A stretch of DNA of 64,000 nt from a virus: the IMG/VR virus record IMGVR_UViG_3300047476_000972, positions 1 to 64,000 of that record. The stretch is one strand, 5' to 3'. The notes under the pieces are model-generated. The model was not told the DNA's origin, searched no databases, and saw only the letters and a list, made by a program, of their open reading frames with translations. Both the position numbers and the translations under genes were made by a program. Positions 36,704-61,449 of this stretch are shown here, in pieces; position 1 is the stretch's first letter, and every line of letters starts with the position of its first letter.

Positions 36704-37048
36704 ATGAAAGATTCTCGAATTGGCGAGTCGCTTTGGTTTATCTGGGATACCCCCAATAACCAATTTGGCGACTATCCAATTTTCTACACCGAAGATCACG
36801 TTGATATAGATAATGAAGTCGTTCGACGTGCCTTGGCATCTGCAATCCAACGTGAAGGGATAGTATCCTCTCTAGGAGAGGGCTACTTTCTTGTTGATCA
36901 TGGAGAGACTTGGCAAGGGTACTCTGGGTCTGTAGATTCTAGCGAAGTAGAGGATCTTTACGAATGTGATGAGAATGGTTCAACTTCCGACGGAGAAATT
37001 ATGCCAGAAGTTGCCCCCACTACTTGGGTTAGGATTTTTGACTTTTGA
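36704..37048 (+). CDS. Hypothetical acidic protein, 114 aa
   Basis: ATG 36704 has no Shine-Dalgarno. TAGAAT at 36692-36697 would put a transcription start on this ATG, a second leaderless candidate, though without a good -35. The protein is acidic (ESLWFIWDTPNNQFGDYPIFYTEDHVD) with no known domain. It overlaps the WhiB gene by four bases, so the two are probably linked in expression. Confidence 0.5.
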   Translation: MKDSRIGESLWFIWDTPNNQFGDYPIFYTEDHVDIDNEVVRRALASAIQREGIVSSLGEGYFLVDHGETWQGYSGSVDSSEVEDLYECDENGSTSDGEIMPEVAPTTWVRIFDF

Positions 37049-37500
37049 TAGACACGCCTGGATGGTACGAAGAAGCTGAATGCTCTAAGCCAATATATAG
37101 AGATGTAATTAAGAACTTCTTTCTGAACAAGTCGGCTCAGCAGTTGCCTGCGCTGAAGATATGCGATGCATGTCCAGTAAAAAGAGATTGCCTTAAGATG
37201 GCCCTAGAAAATAAAGAAATATGGGGCATATGGGGAGGGCTCACTCCTAAAAAGATCCGTAGAACTCTATCTGTGAATTGGCAAGGCCAAGAGATGCGTC
37301 ACAAGCGCCCACCACTATGTCCTGCCTGTGAGGCAAAGACTGACAAACTTATAACTAAGACAGTCAATCGCCCTAACGGTGGGCGCTGGGCAACCATGAA
37401 GCTAGTCGAGTGTGTGGAGTGTAATTTCTCATGGCAGAGCAGAACAAGTGCTAATGCTGTAGAGGCGTTTCACTTGCTAAAGACTAAGAAGAAGTCCTAG
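37045..37500 (+). CDS. WhiB-family transcription factor with C-terminal zinc-ribbon
   Basis: A 151-residue protein from TTG 37045 (AGGA upstream). Cys13, Cys40, Cys43 and Cys49 form the WhiB 4Fe-4S cluster set (C-x26-C-x2-C-x5-C), followed by GIWGG at 61-65 and a basic segment, the hallmark of Wbl proteins that bind sigma factor and DNA. An extra C-terminal part, C92-x2-C95 and C123-x2-C126, looks like a zinc ribbon, which usual WhiB proteins lack. It indicates an actinobacterial host. Phage WhiB proteins can redirect host transcription. It overlaps convergently with the next gene by 17 bases. Confidence 0.85.
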   Translation: MIDTPGWYEEAECSKPIYRDVIKNFFLNKSAQQLPALKICDACPVKRDCLKMALENKEIWGIWGGLTPKKIRRTLSVNWQGQEMRHKRPPLCPACEAKTDKLITKTVNRPNGGRWATMKLVECVECNFSWQSRTSANAVEAFHLLKTKKKS

Positions 37501-47100: not shown

Positions 47101-50695
<3,595 letters not shown>

Positions 50696-50696
<1 letters not shown>

Positions 50697-51114: not shown

Positions 51115-51714
51115 CTAGTTGGTTAGCTTTTTAATCCAGAATGCTGGGGCCATATACTTTACCCCTGCTAGTACAGGAATGGACTCGTGGTAGTACGGAG
51201 CTACTGAGGGAAAGATCACTACACTACCAGCTTCTGGCTTAATCCTCACCCCGAACTCTGTAAAGTTAAGCTCTCCACCCTCCACGTCATCATTTAGATA
51301 TAAAACTGCAGACATTAGTGGCTCTATAGCAGGGTCTCCGTAGTAGTCCACGTGGGGTCCCATAGCTGAGCCTGTAGCATATTTTGAAATACTAAGAGGC
51401 AGTGGGTCTTTGTACTCGATGTAATTTTTACGGGCATAGTCTTGTCCGACTTTTGTTAGTGCATCTTTTATCGTACTATAGACTGCCCGAGCAGCCTCGG
51501 AGCTGGTACTTAGCTTGGATTCATCTGTGGACTTCTTTTGGCCAAAAACATACTTTGGCCCCTCTCCCGAGGCTACCCACTCGCTCCATTTTTCAATGGC
51601 ATCATTGTCAGTAAGATCTTCGTCAGATGTTTCGATTAAAGATACTAGGTCGCTAGGGGCGTCTACTACATTTTTATAGTAGTAAATCTTGTCTGCAAAA
51701 ATTTCTGGTTGCAT
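51115..51714 (-). CDS. 2OG-Fe(II) dioxygenase (prolyl 4-hydroxylase-like) 1
   Basis: I place the start at ATG 51714, overlapping the upstream stop (TAATG), rather than at a longer alternative 27 bases earlier. GPHVDYY gives H-x-D, the later PYYHES the second His, and GVKY the Lys expected to bind 2-oxoglutarate in P4H-type enzymes. A DDVEGGELNF turn precedes the second His. Such enzymes hydroxylate Pro, Lys or Asp side chains in proteins. Target unknown; collagen-like fibres are next door. Confidence 0.8.
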   Translation of the reverse strand: MQPEIFADKIYYYKNVVDAPSDLVSLIETSDEDLTDNDAIEKWSEWVASGEGPKYVFGQKKSTDESKLSTSSEAARAVYSTIKDALTKVGQDYARKNYIEYKDPLPLSISKYATGSAMGPHVDYYGDPAIEPLMSAVLYLNDDVEGGELNFTEFGVRIKPEAGSVVIFPSVAPYYHESIPVLAGVKYMAPAFWIKKLTN

Positions 51715-52448
51715 TAGGCGAACTTGTTGCCCTTTTCCCACTCTACTTTTTGCTCCGCCTGAGCCTTACGGACTTCTCGAATCTCTTCTTCCCAAGCTGC
51801 CTTCTTTTCATCAGAGTAGACTGCGTCAGCGAAGTCCCAGAAGGAAACCATGGTGTAGCGAGTGCCTTTTAAAATTTCTTGAACTCCGTGAATATTCTCT
51901 ACTCCACCTGGGAAACAGATGTATGAATAGGCGCGTGGCTTAAATTCGATATCGTGCTCTGGGAAATACAACTCCCCGCCCTCGTAGTCATCATTCAAGT
52001 ACAGAATCCCGACATACTTATTAATTTCAAATGCATTAGGGTGACCATCAAAGTCGGAGTTGTCCGAGTGCGGGGCCGCGAATCCGCCTACATCCCATTT
52101 CTGAGCGTGGGAAGTATTTGCCACTACTTCGCGATCAAAGACTAGTTCAATAGCTTCTTGAAACTTCTGTCGAAGTAACTCGAAGAATCGTGGTGGTAGA
52201 GAGTACTCTGCCAGTTTAGGATCGTCTGGGTGGATTCCCATTCCAGAAGAGCCATAGAAAGCGATGTCGCCCCACTGGGAAGAGTATGACTCAATGTAAT
52301 CAATGATGCTCTTAGCTGCGTCTGGCGTCACAAAATTAGGAATCTCTATGATTCTGTTCTGCGGAATACCGAGCTCGCCTTTAACAGTAGGCTCGTCTTT
52401 GTAGATGATAAAAGTGTCTTTATCAATAGTTTCAAGATATAGAGACAT
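51714..52448 (-). CDS. 2OG-Fe(II) dioxygenase 2
   Basis: A 244-residue enzyme with H127-x-D129 (APHSDN), H187 (ENIHGV) and R197 (KGTRY) as the co-substrate-binding base; DDYEGGELYF is shared with the neighbours. An extra C-terminal helical stretch, rich in Glu, Lys and Ala, follows residue 205. It overlaps neighbours on both sides by TAATG. Confidence 0.8.
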   Translation of the reverse strand: MSLYLETIDKDTFIIYKDEPTVKGELGIPQNRIIEIPNFVTPDAAKSIIDYIESYSSQWGDIAFYGSSGMGIHPDDPKLAEYSLPPRFFELLRQKFQEAIELVFDREVVANTSHAQKWDVGGFAAPHSDNSDFDGHPNAFEINKYVGILYLNDDYEGGELYFPEHDIEFKPRAYSYICFPGGVENIHGVQEILKGTRYTMVSFWDFADAVYSDEKKAAWEEEIREVRKAQAEQKVEWEKGNKFA

Positions 52449-53221
52449 TAGTGGTCAATACCTTTCAGGTTATAGCGTCCAGAGTTTCGCTCTACGCGTT
52501 CGCGTTCTTTTTCCATTTCGGCCCAGACTTCGTGGCCATATTTTGCTTGACCATCGCGCCACTCCTGAGTGCCTTCGAATTCATATTGCCAGAAAGATCG
52601 TACGAAGTACTTCTGACCAGCGGTAGTTTTATTAACGCCATGGTAGTAAGGAGCTCGAGAAGGGAACACTAGAACGTCTCCCGCCTGAGGCTTGTGCATG
52701 AAGAACTCTACGTCTGTCCCTTCTTCGTTGAGGACCTTAAAACAGATCTCTCCGCCCTCATAGTCTCCATTTAGATACATGGTGCATGTCATAACTGGCT
52801 TGTCTCCGGGAGCGTCTGCGCGCTCCTGTTGAAAGTCTGTGTGATAGAACATGCCCACGTTAGTGTCTGCTCCGCCATCTGTTTTGTACATACAGATAGC
52901 AGGGGCGGTGAATTTCCAGTTGGGAATGCTGTCAGTGAAGTAAGTATCATAATAATGCTTGGTAGCTTCATAAAACGCTTGAAGAATTTTTAAAGCAGGA
53001 TCAGTTAGATCCTTATCACCAGCTAGTAAGGCCTGAGACCACTCTTCTTCATTTGGAAATGACGAAAATGTGTGATTCCTGACCTTAACAGTGGTCAAAT
53101 CTCCGAAAGTGAACCACTGACGCCACTCACTATTGTTCTTGTGGAACTCGATGATCTCTTCTGGGTTTTCATAGAGACCTCGATACACAATCACATTTGG
53201 GTAGAGTTCCAGAACTTCCAT
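52448..53221 (-). CDS. 2OG-Fe(II) dioxygenase 3
   Basis: Start at ATG 53221 overlapping the upstream stop; an in-frame ATG 12 bases upstream is less likely. Metal ligands H127-x-D129 (MFYHTDF), H194 (PYYHGV) and K204 (GQKYF), numbered from this start; GDYEGGEICF replaces DDYEGGEL. The C-terminus is charged. Family: 2OG-FeII_Oxy type P4H. Confidence 0.8.
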   Translation of the reverse strand: MEVLELYPNVIVYRGLYENPEEIIEFHKNNSEWRQWFTFGDLTTVKVRNHTFSSFPNEEEWSQALLAGDKDLTDPALKILQAFYEATKHYYDTYFTDSIPNWKFTAPAICMYKTDGGADTNVGMFYHTDFQQERADAPGDKPVMTCTMYLNGDYEGGEICFKVLNEEGTDVEFFMHKPQAGDVLVFPSRAPYYHGVNKTTAGQKYFVRSFWQYEFEGTQEWRDGQAKYGHEVWAEMEKERERVERNSGRYNLKGIDH

Positions 53222-53904
53222 TAGATACCGCACTGGCTTTCATGAGAAAGAATAGTCCAGAAGAATGGCACTGTGTAACGGATTCCAGACGTAATCTGAG
53301 TTACGCCGTGAATATACTCCATATCGCCTGGGAAGAAGTAGGCAGCTCCAGCCTTTGGCTTGAATTGGATTCCCTGATTAGGAAAGTACAACTCCCCGCC
53401 TTCATAGTCATCATTGATGTAGAAAAGACCAGCAATGTCGTAGTACGGGAAGTCGTTTGGCTTTCCGCGATCTTCTCCCTCGTGCAACTCTTTATCTGCG
53501 TGAGGCATCTGTAGCTGGCCTGGCAACCAACGAACTAGTGCTGGAGATGTAGGAACCGCATCTACTTTAAAGAACGCGTCTACTTCTCTCTTTAGTCGTT
53601 CAACCATTCCGTTGATAACTTCTGGAATCTTAGGGTCTACGGCACGAATAGTGTCATAGGTAGCTACTCGATCTTTCCAATACTCCGAGTCATAAATGAC
53701 AGTGCCCTCTTCGTTATAGTGGGTTTCTGTGACATCCCATGAGGTGTTTGATCGGATAAACGCATTGAGAGTCTGTAGCTCCTCGGGCGTCATAAAATCT
53801 TCTCTGGCCTGAATGTTGGAAGGGCTGTTTCCAAAGAATCCAGAAGGTGTTATGGACATTCTGTTTTCTAGCCTAGAGTTTGAGTAGTCTTCTAAAGGTT
53901 CCAT
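53221..53904 (-). CDS. 2OG-Fe(II) dioxygenase 4
   Basis: A 227-residue enzyme; H135-x-D137 (QMPHADKE), H199 (EYIHGV), R209 (GIRY). The insert between the first His and the beta-strands (HEGEDRGKPNDFPYY) is longer than in the neighbours. ATG 53904 has AGGAT upstream. First gene downstream of the DUF6065-like pair. Confidence 0.8.
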   Translation of the reverse strand: MEPLEDYSNSRLENRMSITPSGFFGNSPSNIQAREDFMTPEELQTLNAFIRSNTSWDVTETHYNEEGTVIYDSEYWKDRVATYDTIRAVDPKIPEVINGMVERLKREVDAFFKVDAVPTSPALVRWLPGQLQMPHADKELHEGEDRGKPNDFPYYDIAGLFYINDDYEGGELYFPNQGIQFKPKAGAAYFFPGDMEYIHGVTQITSGIRYTVPFFWTILSHESQCGI

Positions 53905-53916
53905 GCATCTATCCTA

Positions 53917-54648
53917 TCATTCATAAACTCTTCGAGTCCAAACTTCCTTCTGGTAGACTCCCCCGTCTGGAACACGATACTTCTTGCTATTAGCGTTGTT
54001 GTCCATGGCCATTTTCATGTATGGGACCTTAGCATCAACTTCCGATTCCCAGTCCTCGCGCTTGAAGGGCAACATCTGAGCGTAAGGAGTACCTGCTGGC
54101 AGAACTCCAGTCCAACCTTTAACAATAAAAAATGGCATAGTCCCTGGAAGATTGACTTTGTCGTTGTCAATGATCCCGCTTGTTGTTAAAAATGGTAGCT
54201 CAAAGCGGTTAAATGGTTGAGTGTATAAGACGCTATACCCGTCTGGTACCTGCACTGCCCAGTCCGACCACCATGCAAAATGAACTTCATGATACCCCAT
54301 CGGGGCTTTGAACTGAGGCATCGGCGGCCTGTTTTGAATGAAATCTTTATTTTGAGGATCTAATACTTTGGCTTTAATTACGCCATTGTCTTCATAGAAC
54401 TCGATGTCACAAGGGGTGCGGTAGACATATCCGGTGCCCATGATGTCAAAAACAGCAGGGCAAGCCTTCCACGTTGGAATTTTTCCTCCGACATAAGGAT
54501 CTTTCCAGTGTTCGCCATCTGGCTTGAGAGCAAAACGATCAGCTTTGCGATACCATTCAGGAATTGTCTTGATGGTCGGCTTTGGGGTTGACGGACTGTC
54601 TTCCGTTAGCCATGGGCGATTTTTGATGAATTTAATCAGTTGTTTCAA
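53917..54648 (-). CDS. DUF6065-like protein A
   Basis: A 243-residue protein from TTG 54648, overlapping its upstream gene by 17 bases. Features: IPEWYRKADRF, FAWWSDWAVQVPDGYSVLYTQPFNRFE, LPAGTPYAQMLPF. Its paralogue next door shares the PAGTP-A-x3-P signature. DUF6065-like is my tentative family call; a beta-barrel/cupin-like fold is likely. Function unknown, although being inside a hydroxylase operon is suggestive. Confidence 0.5.
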   Translation of the reverse strand: MKQLIKFIKNRPWLTEDSPSTPKPTIKTIPEWYRKADRFALKPDGEHWKDPYVGGKIPTWKACPAVFDIMGTGYVYRTPCDIEFYEDNGVIKAKVLDPQNKDFIQNRPPMPQFKAPMGYHEVHFAWWSDWAVQVPDGYSVLYTQPFNRFELPFLTTSGIIDNDKVNLPGTMPFFIVKGWTGVLPAGTPYAQMLPFKREDWESEVDAKVPYMKMAMDNNANSKKYRVPDGGVYQKEVWTRRVYE

Positions 54649-55366
54649 TTGTCATTCCTGTCACTGGGCATTTAATGGTTTTAAGTTTGATGTTCTTAGA
54701 TTCATGTTGCCCCATAGAGGAGCCGTCATAGTTGACTGCATCACGATACATCTTTGACCAATCGCCTTTAGAGTTTTTTGCTTCGGCAGCTTCGCCATAC
54801 TTTCTCAGCTCTTCCCAGTATTCGTTTGGAAGACTGCCCTCTGTTATCTCCATCTGATAGCTCGACTGCAGATCGCCAATTGATATGGGGATCACAGCTG
54901 CTACGGGAGTGCCAGCGGGGATAAAGATTTCTTTGTTTGGCTCTGTAATTTTTATAGCAAGTGGCAGCTCGCCCTTATAAAAAGAGGTGCTTAGGATAGT
55001 GGTAAATGTCTGAGTCCCTCTAATAAATTGGTTCGGCACTGGCATTGTCAGCATTGATACGTCGACGTCAGTTGAAAAAACTAGCCCAGTCTTAAAACTA
55101 AGCGTACCGTGAGCCCTACCAGTGTAGACAAACTCTTCGCCCTCTAGAATTTTGACGTGGTGTTCTTCAGAGTTTTCTACGCCATCCCAGATCGCTCGGA
55201 CATCTTTATTAAAGGAAATACCCCAGCCGAGACCATTAGTCAGTGTCATAGGAAAGCACATATACGCGTGCTTCCCTGAAGTATTGTCCATCCAGTCTCG
55301 GGTAGCACGTAGCTGCTCGATGGTCGCAGCTTTTTCGTGTAACCTTTGTACTCGGATAGTTTTCAT
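54632..55366 (-). CDS. DUF6065-like protein B
   Basis: A 244-residue protein. CFPMTLTNGLGWGISF, WDG, then FIPAGTPVAAVIP show the same family as protein A. A C-terminal part with IKCPVTGMTIETTD. Its ATG overlaps the upstream hydroxylase stop (TAATG). Function unknown. Confidence 0.5.
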   Translation of the reverse strand: MKTIRVQRLHEKAATIEQLRATRDWMDNTSGKHAYMCFPMTLTNGLGWGISFNKDVRAIWDGVENSEEHHVKILEGEEFVYTGRAHGTLSFKTGLVFSTDVDVSMLTMPVPNQFIRGTQTFTTILSTSFYKGELPLAIKITEPNKEIFIPAGTPVAAVIPISIGDLQSSYQMEITEGSLPNEYWEELRKYGEAAEAKNSKGDWSKMYRDAVNYDGSSMGQHESKNIKLKTIKCPVTGMTIETTD

Positions 55367-56115
55367 TAGTCGCCTGTCTCGACGATGAACTGGGGGCGGT
55401 GGAACTTTTCTGAATAATCAAGCATGGTAACCATCGAGTGCTTAGTTCCAGATAGAACCGGCATTGCTCGATGAGGGTACATGTAATTAGACGGGAAGAT
55501 GTATAGGTCTCCTGCAGTGGGCTTCACTTTAACATTCTGCAACCTAAAGTACAGCTCTCCACCTTCGTAGTCATCGTTAGGGAAGGCCACTAATGACGTG
55601 ACGCAGTTGTAGGAGAACCCGTGATCATGGTGCTCTTGGAAGTGCTGCCCTGGACCGTACTTAATAAAGTTAGTTGCCTCCCAGTAGCGCAGTTCTCCGA
55701 TGTTGTACATCTTGGTGTAGTGCTTTACCGCTTGGAGCTGTCGGTGATGGGTCTCTTCCCAAAGGGCTACCAGCTTCTGAGCAGCTTCGGAAGGGTCGTG
55801 CTGAATGTCTGTTTTCTTGTACTTAAAGTCAACGCAGTCGCGGTACTCTGGCATTTTTACGCCATAACCAACTAGAGCTTCCTCGTAGTGGTATTGGTTG
55901 CTTGGGTCAAGAAGTACGTCTTCTAACCGCTGAATCACCTGTAGCTCGGTTGGAATTACGTTTCTGTAAACCCAGATGCCAGACATGGGGACGACTTCTT
56001 CCGCGGTAGTCCAAGTCTTTTCTTCAATTTCATACCACTTAGTAAGACGAACATTGTGATCGTTGATGTCTTGCATCATCTTTTCTGTTGGCTTTCCTAC
56101 ATGATTGTTCTGCAT
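55366..56115 (-). CDS. 2OG-Fe(II) dioxygenase 5
   Basis: A 249-residue enzyme; H162-x-D164 (QEHHDH), H215 (YMYPHRAM), K225 (SGTKH). NDDYEGGELYF precedes. AGGA before ATG. The local pattern FVAFPNDDYEGG resembles the next gene more than others, so genes 5 and 6 are probably recent paralogues. Confidence 0.8.
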   Translation of the reverse strand: MQNNHVGKPTEKMMQDINDHNVRLTKWYEIEEKTWTTAEEVVPMSGIWVYRNVIPTELQVIQRLEDVLLDPSNQYHYEEALVGYGVKMPEYRDCVDFKYKKTDIQHDPSEAAQKLVALWEETHHRQLQAVKHYTKMYNIGELRYWEATNFIKYGPGQHFQEHHDHGFSYNCVTSLVAFPNDDYEGGELYFRLQNVKVKPTAGDLYIFPSNYMYPHRAMPVLSGTKHSMVTMLDYSEKFHRPQFIVETGD

Positions 56116-56122
56116 GATTGTC

Positions 56123-56881
56123 CTAATACTTCAACTTGTATTCTTGAATAATTGGGGATACCTTGTGGTTCACGTCTCCGCGATCGTTGTAGTCAGTCAT
56201 AATTACAACGGCATATTTTGTTCCAGAGATCATGTCTTGGGAGGCGTGCTCATAGATGTAGGTTGATGGGAAAACAACTACGTCTCCGGCCTTTGGCTTA
56301 ATAGATAGGCCGTTCATTCGAGGGAACCAAATCTCTCCGCCCTCATAGTCGTCGTTTAGATATACAACTACTGAGACAGTGCACACGTAGGTTGGGCCAT
56401 GATCAGCGTGAACCTTAAAGTGAGTTCCTGATCCTTCATACTTTACAAAGTTAAAAGCCTCGTATGAGCAGATCCCCACTCCCCAGTAGCGGCCGTAGTC
56501 ATCCACACACTGGCGAACTGCTTGGAACACGGCTTCGTGTACATCGTAGAGTTCGGCATTGTGCTCGTTACGAGGACCTAGGCCAGTGGAGTTGATTTTA
56601 AAGTCTTGTGCATTTCTCGCATTGACGTCTACGTCAGCAGAAGAAGTAACCTTTGCTCCTTGCCAACGATACCTGCCAGTGCCATCTAAATTTTTTTCTA
56701 GGGTGTCAATGTAGTGCTTACCTTGTTCTTTGGTAATTGCACCACTATAGACGTTTACGCCTAGGGCTGGATTTGCTACGGTAATAGCTGGATTAGTGGT
56801 AGCCTGTCGATCAGGCATACGATGCGCTGAGGTCTCTGACCTGTCTTTAGTAAACCAATCATTCATGCATTTAGTATACAT
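56123..56881 (-). CDS. 2OG-Fe(II) dioxygenase 6
   Basis: A 252-residue enzyme with H158-x-D160 (KVHADHGP), H212 (YIYEHAS), K222 (SGTKY) and DDYEGGEIWF. The start ATG 56881 lacks a Shine-Dalgarno; an alternative ATG lies 15 bases on. Closest to dioxygenase 5 by its ADHG/HDHG and TKY/TKH features. Confidence 0.75.
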   Translation of the reverse strand: MYTKCMNDWFTKDRSETSAHRMPDRQATTNPAITVANPALGVNVYSGAITKEQGKHYIDTLEKNLDGTGRYRWQGAKVTSSADVDVNARNAQDFKINSTGLGPRNEHNAELYDVHEAVFQAVRQCVDDYGRYWGVGICSYEAFNFVKYEGSGTHFKVHADHGPTYVCTVSVVVYLNDDYEGGEIWFPRMNGLSIKPKAGDVVVFPSTYIYEHASQDMISGTKYAVVIMTDYNDRGDVNHKVSPIIQEYKLKY

Positions 56882-56898
56882 ACGAATATGTAAAAATG

Positions 56899-57675
56899 CT
56901 AGATTATCGGGACATATCCTTCAAGATTTTTTGGGAAGTCTGCTGGCGGGCAGTAGCACTCTGGGCACCCTATACACTCTTTGTTTTTAGGGGGTAGCCC
57001 CTCAAATGAGATAGGCTTTCCGGTGGCTTCGTAGAACCGTATCTCGGCATCATGCGTATACTCTTTTGCTAATTTCCTAAAAGAGTCTTTGTCAACTGTA
57101 TTGCTGTCTAGGTTGTAGGACCAATCTTCAGGCTTAGAATATATGGCAAAAAAGACGATCATATAATCTTCGTCATTAGTTGATGGATATGGTGGCCTAC
57201 CGTGTATATGCTGTTGGCCATTAAAAAAGACAGCTGAATTTTCTTCTTCGGAGTATACGTGGCCTTCTATTTCTACTCCCCAGTCCGAGATTCCGTGCTT
57301 TACAACGCATAGATCCATCAAATACTGGCTAGAAGTGTCATCTAGATGTCTCCAAAGATATGGGACTATGTCTTCTTGTTTTTGATATCTAGCTGCAAAG
57401 ATAAAGTTTTGTTTTAGATCAGGCTCTCCCCAGCTCTCCCTTGCCAAAGCCAGCAACTCTTCTCCCACAAAATGAGGGATCTCGGGGTTACAAGTCCATC
57501 TCCCTGAGATTGTGTGGTACTTAGCTGAAGAGCCTGGTCCCCACTCTTGAGCCATAAGTACTTCTTTTATGGCATTGAAGCTTTTCTCAGAGAGCAGGTT
57601 GCTCTTCTTAAATGGTTTATACGGGGTAGGCAAAGGCCACTTTATGTTTGGACTGTTGTCTGCATAAAGTGGCAC
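56899..57675 (-). CDS. Divergent 2OG-Fe(II)-like dioxygenase with C-terminal Cys cluster
   Basis: A 258-residue protein from GTG 57675. WRHLDDTS gives H110-x-D112; QQHIHGRP gives a late His and Arg; so the cofactor fold is retained although the DDYEGGEL signature is missing. The C-terminus has C234-x2-C237-x2-C240-x-C242, which could bind zinc. Divergent relative to the other six; it could be inactive, or have a different substrate. Confidence 0.6.
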   Translation of the reverse strand: MPLYADNSPNIKWPLPTPYKPFKKSNLLSEKSFNAIKEVLMAQEWGPGSSAKYHTISGRWTCNPEIPHFVGEELLALARESWGEPDLKQNFIFAARYQKQEDIVPYLWRHLDDTSSQYLMDLCVVKHGISDWGVEIEGHVYSEEENSAVFFNGQQHIHGRPPYPSTNDEDYMIVFFAIYSKPEDWSYNLDSNTVDKDSFRKLAKEYTHDAEIRFYEATGKPISFEGLPPKNKECIGCPECYCPPADFPKNLEGYVPII

Positions 57676-57700
57676 TTTGCTACTACCCTATCCCTCTACT

Positions 57701-58516
57701 TTAGAGGATTCGCATGAACCTCGGTGGGAAGAATGGGAATGATGGTGGGAAGAACGGGAAGAACGGGAAGAACGGGAAGTAAGGGAAGAACGGGAAGAAT
57801 GGGAAGTAAGGGAAATATGGTGGGAAGAACGGGAAGAACGGGAAGAACGGGAAGTAAGGGAAGAATGGCGGAAAGAATGGGAAATATGGCGGGAAGAACG
57901 GCGGGGTTGTATTGCTAGTGGAGTAGTCAGACCACGCAGAAGTTCCGTTTGCGTTGGTTACGCGAACTCTATACTGCTGTGAGGTATCTGCCTCTTGAGC
58001 TACGTTTGCAGATGTTCCTGTTGTGTTGCCTGACTTGGAGTCGGTGCTCTCCCAGTAGTATGTGCTGAGGGTTGCACCGCCAGTAGCTGGTGCTGACCAA
58101 GAAACATAGTCTGTCTGATCGCCAGAAAAGTTCTGAACTGTTGGTGCATTTGGAGTGGCAGGAACTGTAGTGATAGTTACAGAGCCAGATTCGGTTGAAA
58201 GTGCAGAAGTTCCAGCAGCATTTGTTGCTGAAACTTTAAAGGTGTATGAAGCAGCTGAATCTAGGCCACCAACAACAATCGGAGAAGATCCGCCGGTTAG
58301 GTTTGTGGCAGTGGTGTCTTCTATTCCGCTTTTATATGCAATTACAGTAAATGAAGTCGCAGAAGGAGAGTCGGCTGGGAGCTCGAAAGAAACGCTAGCC
58401 GCACCGTCATTGAAGGCGCGGTTAGTTCCGACGTTACTACCCGAAACATTTATTGGGGCTTTTGGCTCCAAAAAGTCGTTAGACGCCTGAGACTTTCTAC
58501 CAGCTCTCTTGCTCAT
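57701..58516 (-). CDS. Fibronectin-III protein with Phe/Pro/Tyr-rich C-terminal tail
   Basis: A 271-residue protein with AGGAGA before the ATG. Two FN3-type domains (about 20-118 and 120-203). From residue 205 to 267 it is almost only Phe, Pro and Tyr in FFP/YFP units, then FMRIL. The hydrophobic aromatic tail is very unusual. A tail-fibre tip, a membrane-active segment or a self-assembly tract are possible. Next to the hydroxylase block. Confidence 0.75.
   Translation of the reverse strand: MSKRAGRKSQASNDFLEPKAPINVSGSNVGTNRAFNDGAASVSFELPADSPSATSFTVIAYKSGIEDTTATNLTGGSSPIVVGGLDSAASYTFKVSATNAAGTSALSTESGSVTITTVPATPNAPTVQNFSGDQTDYVSWSAPATGGATLSTYYWESTDSKSGNTTGTSANVAQEADTSQQYRVRVTNANGTSAWSDYSTSNTTPPFFPPYFPFFPPFFPYFPFFPFFPFFPPYFPYFPFFPFFPYFPFFPFFPFFPPSFPFFPPRFMRIL
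57716..57904 (-). repeat. Tandem FFP/YFP-coding repeat
   Basis: About 190 bases of degenerate 9-base units (minus strand TTC-TTC-CCG/CCA and TAC-TTC-CCN variants) encode the Phe/Pro/Tyr tail. The plus strand reads as GGGAAGAAC/GGGAAGTAA repeats. Repeat number may vary among isolates by slippage. Not a CRISPR array: no spacers. Confidence 0.85.
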
Positions 58517-58530
58517 TTAATTCTCTCCTA

Positions 58531-61449
58531 TTAGGCGGTCAAGTCGCCGTATACCAGCCATGTGTTAGAGGCACGCTTTAATAGTGTAGCAGATGACCAG
58601 CGGGTCCTTAGCTTTAGACCCGGGGTAGCGTTTACAGTAACTCCGACCGCGCCCTCAATTGTGACTTGACCTGTATTGGTCTGAATAATGTCCAGAGTGG
58701 TTCCAACTGGATAGTCCACGGTCGAGTCTGCAGGAATTGTTAGTGTGGTTGCCGAGGTCTTGCTGATCTCTATGATGGTATCACGCTCATTGAGATTAGA
58801 CAGAGTATATGAGTCAGTCTTAGCTGAGATGGTCGTGATAGATGGAACACCTTGCTTAGTCTGAGCTCCGTCAGTGAATGCAACTCCAGATGCTCCTACG
58901 GTGACAGTTCCTGTGAATGTAGGATCTGCAGTCGGGGCCTTGGCGTCAATCTGAGTCTGAATTGCTGAAGTAACACCATTCAAGTACTGAAGTTCTGTGT
59001 TTGACACATCTCCAATAGTTGCCGATTCAGCGGTGAGCGAGTCAACCGCGATCGAAGCTAGAGCGAAGCTAGAGTGGGCAGTGTTGATAAAGACTGATTC
59101 GTCTGGCTCTGGTGTGTAGCCGTCGAAAATCTTAAATACTCCATCACTAGCATCCCTAAACATACCAGCGTGAGCATATCCAGCACCATTTACTGTGTCG
59201 TAACGACCAGCAGCCCAACCTAGGTCAGGGTTGAAGTGGACCTTGCCTCGCGCGGTTCCACCGCTAGTGTAGGTATCGGTTACGGTGCTAGTTACTGTGA
59301 AGGTAGTACTGGTTACAGCCGTAATCTCTAGGCCGTCACCAGAAATGTTGAATGAAGATGGAGTCACGCCTGTTACAGTTACATAGTCTCCGGCCTCGTA
59401 ACCGTGGGCAGCTTGAGTTGTATATACAACTTCGGTACCGCTACCAACAGCATTGGTGATGGTGCTCATGCCCGCTTGGTTGAGGTAGATCATGTTGTCG
59501 CGTAGCTTTAGGTCAGCTGCACTAACGGTTGTAGTAGTTCCTTGAACTACTAGGTTTCCAGTAATGGTTAGACCTGGAATCTCTACTGACCCAGTGAAAG
59601 TTGCCCCAGAAAGCCCAGCCTTTGCATCTAGCTGAGTCTGAATGGCACTAGTCACGCCGTTTACGTAACCAATCTCCGTTGAAGAAACATCGCCAATTGA
59701 GGTAGTCGATGGAAGTGAAATTGTTCCACTGAATGTTGCATCTGCAGTCGGTGCCTTTAGATCCAAAGCACTCTGAGTATCGGTGGAAATTGGCTTGTCC
59801 GCATCGGCGGTGTTGTCTACGTTTCCAAGGCCAACCATGCCCTTAGTAATTCCAGAAACAGTGCCGGTGAAAGTAGGGCTTTCAGTTGGAGCTTTGTCGT
59901 TCAGCTGAGTCTGGATTGCGCTAGTTACGCCATCTACATAGTTTAGTTCTGTAGTAGTGGCAGTAATTCCGTCTAGAGTGTTTAGCTCAGAAGTGGAGGC
60001 TGTGATACCGCTTAGAGTGTTGAGCTCTGAAGTAGACGCCGTGATGCCGTTCAAAGTATTTAGCTCTGAGGTGGTCGCGGTAATTCCGTCTAGAGTGTTA
60101 ATCTCTGCAGCTGTAGCTGTAACGCCATTTAGGATGTTTAGCTCTGCTGTAGTGGAGGTAATTCCGTCCAATACGTTAAGCTCTGCGGCCGAAGCCGTAA
60201 TCCCATCAAGGGTGTTTAGCTCCGCTGTCGTTGCTGTAATACCATCCAAAACATTTAGCTCTGAGCTCGAAACTGTAATACCGCTCAAGGTGTTTAGCTC
60301 AGTAGTTGAGATAACGACTCCATCTAGAACATTTAGTTCAGTGGCGTTAGCTGTAAGACCAGCGATGTTCAAGATGTCGGCTGCAGTTACAGTTCCAATA
60401 GTTGTTGATGATGGTAGCGACACGTTACCAGTAAAGGTAGGACCGTCTAAGTACGCTAGGTTAGCTGTATCAGAAATACCGTGCACCGAAGTAGTGTCAG
60501 AGTTATGGGTAGTAATAGCGGAAGATACGTCAGTTAGATACGCCAAATCTTCAGTATTGGTGATACCGTGAATATTTGTAGATACGTTGTGATCGGTGAT
60601 TGCATTATCAGCGTATGTTTCATATGCAGTCGTTAGGCTTGAGGTCAGGGATGCAATCTCAGATGAGGTTGTTCCTGCGTAGTCAAGAGAAGTCCAGGCT
60701 GTTACACCGTTTCCAATCTTAAACTTGCCAGTATTGCTTTCTAGAGCAAATACGTTTGCCGATACAACTGGGTTTGTGTTAGTCCAGTTAGTAGAAGTAT
60801 TGATCTCTAGAGTGGCTTTAGTGCCAATAGAAGTCGTGATGGTCGAAGCAAAGTTCGGGTCATCACCTAGTGCAGCAGCCAGCTCGTTCAACGTGTTTAG
60901 TGTCGTTGGAGAAGAGTCAATCAGGTTAGCAATTGCAGTGTCAGTGTATGAATTAGCAGCTGATTCTGCTGAGTCTGCCTTTGACTGAGCACCAGTCTGA
61001 GTTTCTAATTCGCTCGTATCTGCGATTCCATGAACGCTTGTAGTGTCTGCGTTGTGGTTATATACAGAGGTGTCTGTGTAATCTTTTACTTCGATTTCTA
61101 AAGCATCCACCTTCGACTGAGCGCCAGTCTGGGTCTCGAGAGCAGATGTGTCAGCGATTCCGTGAACGTTGGTGGTGTCTGAGGCATGGGTTGAAAGATC
61201 GCTAGAGGAGGCCTTTGCATCTAGCTGAGTTTGAATAGCAGAGGTAACACCGTCTAGATAGCCGATCTCGGTATCAGAAACTCCGGTCACTGCACCGACA
61301 TATGGAAGTGACGTCCACGCTGTTGAACCATTACCTACTTTAACCTTGCCAGTATCGGTCTCAAATGCGAGCTCGCCTACGGAAAGAGTAGGGTTAGTAG
61401 AGGTCCAGTTAGCCGCTGTACCGCGACGTATTTGAATTTTAACTGCCAT
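58531..61449 (-). CDS. Long repeat tail fibre protein
   Basis: A 972-residue fibre. N-terminus IQIRRGTAANWTSTNPTLSVGELAFETDTGKVKVGNG is the usual fibre-anchor domain, repeated near 215-255. A middle set of eleven 13-residue repeats (ELNxLDGIT-type) at about 371-513, several xxTSAIQTQLDAKA units, THNSDTTSVHGI repeats, and a C-terminal globular part. It should be an elongated trimeric beta-fibre. Confidence 0.75.
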   Translation of the reverse strand: MAVKIQIRRGTAANWTSTNPTLSVGELAFETDTGKVKVGNGSTAWTSLPYVGAVTGVSDTEIGYLDGVTSAIQTQLDAKASSSDLSTHASDTTNVHGIADTSALETQTGAQSKVDALEIEVKDYTDTSVYNHNADTTSVHGIADTSELETQTGAQSKADSAESAANSYTDTAIANLIDSSPTTLNTLNELAAALGDDPNFASTITTSIGTKATLEINTSTNWTNTNPVVSANVFALESNTGKFKIGNGVTAWTSLDYAGTTSSEIASLTSSLTTAYETYADNAITDHNVSTNIHGITNTEDLAYLTDVSSAITTHNSDTTSVHGISDTANLAYLDGPTFTGNVSLPSSTTIGTVTAADILNIAGLTANATELNVLDGVVISTTELNTLSGITVSSSELNVLDGITATTAELNTLDGITASAAELNVLDGITSTTAELNILNGVTATAAEINTLDGITATTSELNTLNGITASTSELNTLSGITASTSELNTLDGITATTTELNYVDGVTSAIQTQLNDKAPTESPTFTGTVSGITKGMVGLGNVDNTADADKPISTDTQSALDLKAPTADATFSGTISLPSTTSIGDVSSTEIGYVNGVTSAIQTQLDAKAGLSGATFTGSVEIPGLTITGNLVVQGTTTTVSAADLKLRDNMIYLNQAGMSTITNAVGSGTEVVYTTQAAHGYEAGDYVTVTGVTPSSFNISGDGLEITAVTSTTFTVTSTVTDTYTSGGTARGKVHFNPDLGWAAGRYDTVNGAGYAHAGMFRDASDGVFKIFDGYTPEPDESVFINTAHSSFALASIAVDSLTAESATIGDVSNTELQYLNGVTSAIQTQIDAKAPTADPTFTGTVTVGASGVAFTDGAQTKQGVPSITTISAKTDSYTLSNLNERDTIIEISKTSATTLTIPADSTVDYPVGTTLDIIQTNTGQVTIEGAVGVTVNATPGLKLRTRWSSATLLKRASNTWLVYGDLTA
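59911..60339 (-). repeat. Eleven 39-bp (13-residue) tandem repeats
   Basis: Within the 972-residue fibre the ELN start of each unit falls at residues 371, 384, 397, 410, 423, 436, 449, 462, 475, 488 and 501, exactly 13 apart. The core is ELN-x-LDGIT-x4. A strictly periodic stretch fits a triple beta-prism shaft. Copy number may vary. Confidence 0.85.

Follow-up and report, generated by a model that had tools for sequence, protein, structure and literature searches.

A phenylalanine-proline tract on a phage tail-region protein as a candidate substrate of downstream prolyl-hydroxylase-like enzymes

A viral gene in the window, that is, the whole 64,000-nucleotide stretch analysed here (positions 1 to 64,000 of IMG/VR record IMGVR_UViG_3300047476_000972), ends in a tract of phenylalanine-proline (F-P) repeats and is followed by a block of 2OG-Fe(II) oxygenase genes. 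Among relatives of this gene, the presence of the adjacent oxygenase block depends on the type of tract. Judged from the sequences and their arrangement, the tract appears to be the best candidate so far for a target of the viral proline-hydroxylase-like enzymes, and the most economical account would have these enzymes act on the tract and recognise F-P as their motif. The phage is an environmental one and its host is probably a member of the Actinobacteria; a WhiB-like regulator encoded at 37045-37500 points to an actinobacterial host. Isolates of phages of Nanopelagicales now exist (PMC10202952).

The tract gene and its parts are as follows.

57701..58516, minus strand: whole FN3-FN3-tract protein, 271 aa (ORF with ATG start; Pfam fn3; 142 viral relatives)
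58457..58516, minus strand: basic conserved N-terminus with NDFLEP (N13, D14, F15, L16 and P18 invariant, 40 relatives)
57905..58456, minus strand: two FN3 domains, approximately residues 21-204 (Pfam fn3 at 37-109; model of the relative L043)
57716..57904, minus strand: (xF)P/PP tract, residues 205-267 (61 of 63 residues F, P or Y; shuffle test)

A preliminary description of this DNA had noted that nearly all of residues 205-267 are F, P or Y and that they end a protein with two FN3 domains, and both statements are correct. The tract comprises 31 F, 25 P, 5 Y, 1 S and 1 R. Pfam places one fn3 domain at residues 37-109 (E 1.7e-6), and evidence for the second comes from the relative L043, whose model shows two FN3 domains at high confidence ahead of its tract; on these two grounds the protein is an FN3 protein. 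The span first assigned to the tract, 57701-57904, is narrowed to 57716-57904, since the remainder encodes the last four residues (MRIL) and the TAA stop. From end to end the tract parses as (xF)P or (xF)PP, where x is any residue, that is, as xF dipeptides split by one or two prolines. None of 200,000 composition-preserving shuffles of the tract matched this grammar, and FFF and PPP were both absent in just 14 of 200,000.

The NDFLEP peptide is a putative virion docking peptide. PHROG matches of the protein are weak (minor tail, E 6.7e-4; Hoc-like, E 0.0076), and its neighbours are tail genes. On the plus strand, a collagen-like ORF (GRTGRTG, 57724-57918) was rejected, since it mirrors the CCN codons for proline, and a further antisense frame contains stops. 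The tract itself has no glycine and hence is not a collagen-like Gly-X-Y repeat. An inverted repeat at 57685-57712 spans the stop codon, and the relative L006, whose sequence differs there, seems able to pair as well; RNA folding around the end of the gene is no better than in shuffles (not significant).

A scan of IMG/VR with the whole protein retrieved the 142 relatives, and two tract-pattern scans contributed further loci beyond these. The protein of L004 is identical to that of the window and the protein of L005 is 96% identical; both carry the tract, the tract of L005 differs from that of the window by four synonymous and no amino-acid changes, and in relatives the FN3 part runs into the F-P tract in the same frame; it follows that the reading frame is real. 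Shortened or frame-broken tracts in relatives had been foreseen as the observation that would speak against the tract. Its length does vary among relatives, from 17 to 177 residues, yet grammar and frame hold in 140 distinct F-P tracts from IMG/VR phages, where proline runs are one or two residues long and 3595 of 3687 (97.5%) come after phenylalanine. The NDFLEP N-terminus and the FN3 domains are conserved and the region beyond them varies: the FN3 part can be followed by F-P tracts (FFP, YFP, PHFPP, FCP) or by GAFGAF, FGFTP or SFTPY tracts, and the tract by nothing, a Cys-rich end or a Hint-like domain. Several N-terminal architectures precede F-P tracts.

The INPHARED phage database alone would have missed these relatives, because tblastn with the window protein gave no match there; it became informative only once queried with a Hint-bearing relative. 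In about 85,000 prokaryote genomes the tract pattern had 0 exact matches and the NDFLEP pattern gave nine stretches, none of them confirmed, and thus no prophage or cellular copy was found in the prokaryote genomes searched. A search of the literature for the tract string found nothing. Phenylalanine codons in F-P tracts (window 57716-57904 and 136 relatives) are 92% TTC; where these genes encode FN3 the TTC share is 15%, and in the neighbouring oxygenase genes it is about 20%. Slippage avoidance, frame maintenance and translation speed are candidate causes of this bias.

The genes around the tract gene, listed from its upstream neighbour through the downstream block, are as follows.

58531..61449, minus strand: upstream tail-fibre-like protein with Mtd_N (Pfam Mtd_N E 2.1e-17; phrog tail-fibre matches)
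56899..57675, minus strand: divergent 2OG-Fe(II) oxygenase, first gene downstream (HxD...H invariant; Foldseek matches to 2OG dioxygenases including PHD2)
56123..56881, minus strand: 2OG-Fe(II) oxygenase (PF13640 E 9.4e-12)
55366..56115, minus strand: 2OG-Fe(II) oxygenase (PF13640 E 3e-12)
54632..55366, minus strand: DUF6065 protein (PF19541 E 1.4e-27)
53917..54648, minus strand: phrog_7084 protein (homologue comes after the tract gene in most GAF loci)
53221..53904, minus strand: 2OG-Fe(II) oxygenase (PF13640 E 9.9e-7)
52448..53233, minus strand: 2OG-Fe(II) oxygenase (PF13640 E 1.2e-8)
51714..52448, minus strand: 2OG-Fe(II) oxygenase (PF13640 E 3e-8)
51115..51741, minus strand: 2OG-Fe(II) oxygenase (PF13640 E 5.6e-11; nearest solved relatives prolyl hydroxylases, PDB matches)

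The oxygenase genes reported just downstream of the tract are thus real, and they encode six PF13640 proteins and a seventh, more divergent one. H158, D160 and H212 are invariant in all six. The seventh, the product of the first downstream gene, has no match in Pfam or in a profile comparison with the PF13640 set; its model is modest (mean pLDDT 67) and adopts a 2OG dioxygenase fold with PHD2 among the top Foldseek matches, and HxD...H is invariant in its relatives. The HxD...H site, the PF13640 matches and the fold match of the seventh place these proteins in the 2OG-Fe(II) oxygenase superfamily. For one enzyme (51115-51741) the best solved matches by sequence are a PKHD-type hydroxylase and prolyl 4-hydroxylases. 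The targets of PF13640 enzymes can be residues or molecules other than proline.

F-P phages keep the DUF6065 (54632-55366) and phrog_7084 (53917-54648) genes in synteny with the tract gene, and GAF phages do so for the phrog_7084 type. This tail region also encodes two collagen-like GPTGPTG tail proteins still further downstream, at 47101-50696. Outside the window, an ORF of the same record (L414:11508-12725; record 74507-75724) has a signal-peptide-like start and is subtilisin-like by eye.

The linkage between tract and oxygenases was scanned with a profile made from the window's oxygenases, for genes with at least 4 kb of downstream sequence and within a limit of 4 kb. In these counts, which include near-copies and loci that are not mutually independent, 132 of the 136 F-P tract genes have an oxygenase gene downstream, at a median distance of 532 nt and with 3.1 copies on average, and only 2 of 67 have one upstream, so the arrangement is directional. 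Among GAF-tract homologues, in which the GAFGAF repeat is free of proline, no oxygenase was found either downstream (0/38) or upstream (0/35); one of six TP-type tract genes has a downstream oxygenase, as does one further non-F-P tract gene, that of L059; in the two tract genes without F-P that have one, L034 and L059, it lies at 1.5-3.5 kb. The link to F-P tracts is seen behind several kinds of N-terminus, namely NDFLEP-FN3 (87/87), other FN3 (18/19) and unclassified (10/10). PF13640 occurs anywhere in the record in 23 of 32 GAF/TP phages versus 32 of 32 F-P phages; GAF phage genomes often carry oxygenases, and therefore adjacency, not presence, is the signal. As a control, unrelated viral (TP)n proteins were sampled; of the 23 testable ones a single one had an oxygenase in its vicinity, which indicates that Pro-rich repeats in general do not attract oxygenase genes. 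Collagen was considered as the true oxygenase substrate and rejected, as collagen-like ORFs lie near only 3 of 41 F-P loci. The earlier suggestion that the tract could be a substrate for the downstream hydroxylases hence gains strong comparative support (132/136 versus 0/38).

An alternative that carries real weight, though we judge it clearly the less probable, is that the oxygenases act elsewhere, on tail-fibre proteins, host targets or metabolites, and co-travel with the tract in one inherited tail cassette. The F-P/GAF contrast is indeed partly confounded by lineage. In the tree of the neighbouring phrog_7084 gene, one deep split parts the F-P from the GAF phages, with a single switch between these two lineages, and this tree is thus uninformative as a test of independence. 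Some oxygenases are encoded at a distance from the tract gene, such as one at 70.9 kb in the window's record, and L034 and L059 have oxygenases without F-P. The FN3 tree, on the other hand, speaks against action elsewhere. Tract type switches five times on it as labelled, or about three times after discounting two truncated F-P rows; where a case is informative, the oxygenase block switches together with tract type. For example, L264 has an F-P-type FN3 and a GAF tract; a phrog_7084-type gene follows directly and the oxygenase block is absent. L018, L027 and L041 fall within the GAF/TP clade and have an F-P tract and oxygenases. An independent-pairs test on this tree yields 3 pairs only, too few for significance.

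The persistence of the link behind differing N-termini likewise counts against targets elsewhere, as does the position of the oxygenases in the GAF lineage. In L402-L409 and L234, the tail-locus oxygenases stand immediately behind another tail protein, a Pro-rich one with long repeats of TP, VTP or TPAV, or one or two genes further on; a PF11397 GlcNAc transferase is often their neighbour. L400, L401 and L412 start at the contig end, with the upstream gene out of view, and in L410, L411 and L413 the oxygenases are in other contexts. We read this gene order as suggesting that, within this phage group, each lineage has its oxygenase placed after the Pro-repeat protein. Tail proteins with TP/VTP repeat linkers lie at L403:8333-11368, L406:2923-4917 and L234:9738-11300, each with a 2OG oxygenase next, and in several phages with such proteins a PF11397 GlcNAc transferase and a sulfotransferase-like gene come after. 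A 'YPYP' tract of L234 was discarded because it arises when a (TP)n protein is read out of frame.

PF11397, which we take to be the family of the Skp1 GlcNAc transferase, also occurs inside the oxygenase block of L007, L008, L057 and L177, where the order is tract gene, seventh-type oxygenase, PF11397, HxD...H protein and PF13640 oxygenases. The window's own record has no PF11397 match, and glycosylation is therefore not claimed for the window phage.

In the account that we propose, and to which we give slightly better than an even chance when taken as a whole, an accessory tail-region protein would be anchored through its N-terminus and FN3 domains, with a flexible, extended (xF)P/PP tract as its C-terminus. 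The enzymes of the directly downstream genes would hydroxylate tract prolines after phenylalanine, before assembly, and in some relatives the GlcNAc transferase may next glycosylate the hydroxyproline. Modification would render a sticky aromatic tract soluble, stiffer and possibly sugar-coated. On the virion, the modified tract would form a surface or receptor-facing bristle, with a presumed role in adsorption. A wider reading, which we offer tentatively, is that of a hydroxyproline-rich glycoprotein system: (xF)P/PP or (T/V)P tail repeats would be hydroxylated by the clustered phage 2OG oxygenases and, in some phages, decorated with GlcNAc by the Skp1-type transferase, giving extensin-like sugar-coated bristles.

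AlphaFold assigns no structure to the tract. In the model of the Hint-bearing L043, the FN3 domains are confident, the tract has no secondary structure (pLDDT about 40-60) and the C-terminus has a Hint fold (BIL2 6y75, TMt 0.75); this model argues for a flexible or extended tract. The window protein lacks a Hint domain and is thus, unlike some relatives, not a Hint/BIL protein. A Hint-like domain stands right behind the aromatic tract in L014, L024, L030, L033, L042, L043, L049, L264 and others; by inspection, F-P types have Cys at its first position and most GAF types Ser, as though the GAF-type domains had lost activity.

The predicted disorder, together with the quite unlike aromatic tracts that homologues carry at the same place, is also compatible with an unmodified aromatic adhesive. 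Phenylalanine stickers would then bind the host surface or each other, proline would only stop folding, and GAF, FTPFG and SFTPY tracts would be functional equivalents. We consider this improbable, as it gives no reason for oxygenase genes to lie beside F-P tracts but not beside GAF tracts. Insertion of the tract into the host envelope during adsorption, raised in the preliminary description, finds no support and is very improbable: phenylalanine makes up about half of the tract, but 40% is proline, mean Kyte-Doolittle hydropathy is 0.56, and Gly-rich and other tracts stand in its place in homologues. The same proline content and hydropathy, and the helix-free model of the relative, argue against a transmembrane or membrane-inserted helix of about 20 residues, and by inspection the N-terminus MSKRAGRKSQASNDFLEP is not a signal peptide. 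Self-assembly of the tract into a fibre tip, likewise raised in the preliminary description, would be a further possible role; the neighbour of the tract gene is the tail-fibre-like gene with the Mtd_N domain. Least probable of all is a functionless low-complexity by-product of replication slippage, which would fit the tandem repeats in the DNA and the strongly variable length but not the grammar retained in 140 distinct tracts, the synonymous-only changes in L005 or the TTC contrast between tract (92%) and FN3 part (15%).

Viral prolyl hydroxylases paired with Pro-rich proteins are already known, and the version with an F-P tract is new. To our knowledge, the gene neighbourhood of PBCV-1 does not point to one substrate. 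PBCV-1 has a prolyl 4-hydroxylase and Pro-rich viral proteins (Eriksson 1999, cited in PMC9301287), and so resembles the present case in combining a virus-encoded enzyme with candidate viral substrates; it differs in being a eukaryotic virus in which the aromatic-proline tract is absent. Plant extensins and other hydroxyproline-rich glycoproteins (PMC4132260) share the Pro-rich repeat, the prolyl hydroxylase and possible O-glycosylation of hydroxyproline, whereas the phage protein has aromatic-rich (xF)P repeats and no signal peptide, and its modification is only proposed. In Dictyostelium Skp1 (PMC3515798) a prolyl hydroxylase is likewise followed by a GlcNAc transferase, but at a single site of a cytoplasmic protein; among the phages here the transferase is present only in some relatives. 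C-terminal Hint domains are found in tail-region proteins of phage NCTB and of Erwinia/Yersinia jumbo phages, as they are after the tract in several relatives; in the former they follow collagen-like repeats, and the window protein has none.

In Baltic Sea water, phage genes for prolyl-hydroxylase-like enzymes belong to the abundant viral genes, and what viruses use them for has been called cryptic (PMC9301287). A recent structure-based survey finds such enzymes widespread in marine phages, with substrates not named; its PHROG 61 oxygenases are similar in fold to human EGLN3 and annotated without a substrate (PMC12774648). The window oxygenases match phrog_61, and here a candidate substrate gene is named. 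The gene neighbourhood points to a single concrete candidate substrate, whose motif, F-P, is simple, and the main interest of the finding is that the substrate question becomes testable. If true, a bacterial virus would offer a rare example of protein hydroxylation, and perhaps of glycosylated hydroxyproline, and the aromatic-proline tracts of these tail proteins would constitute a new sequence class.
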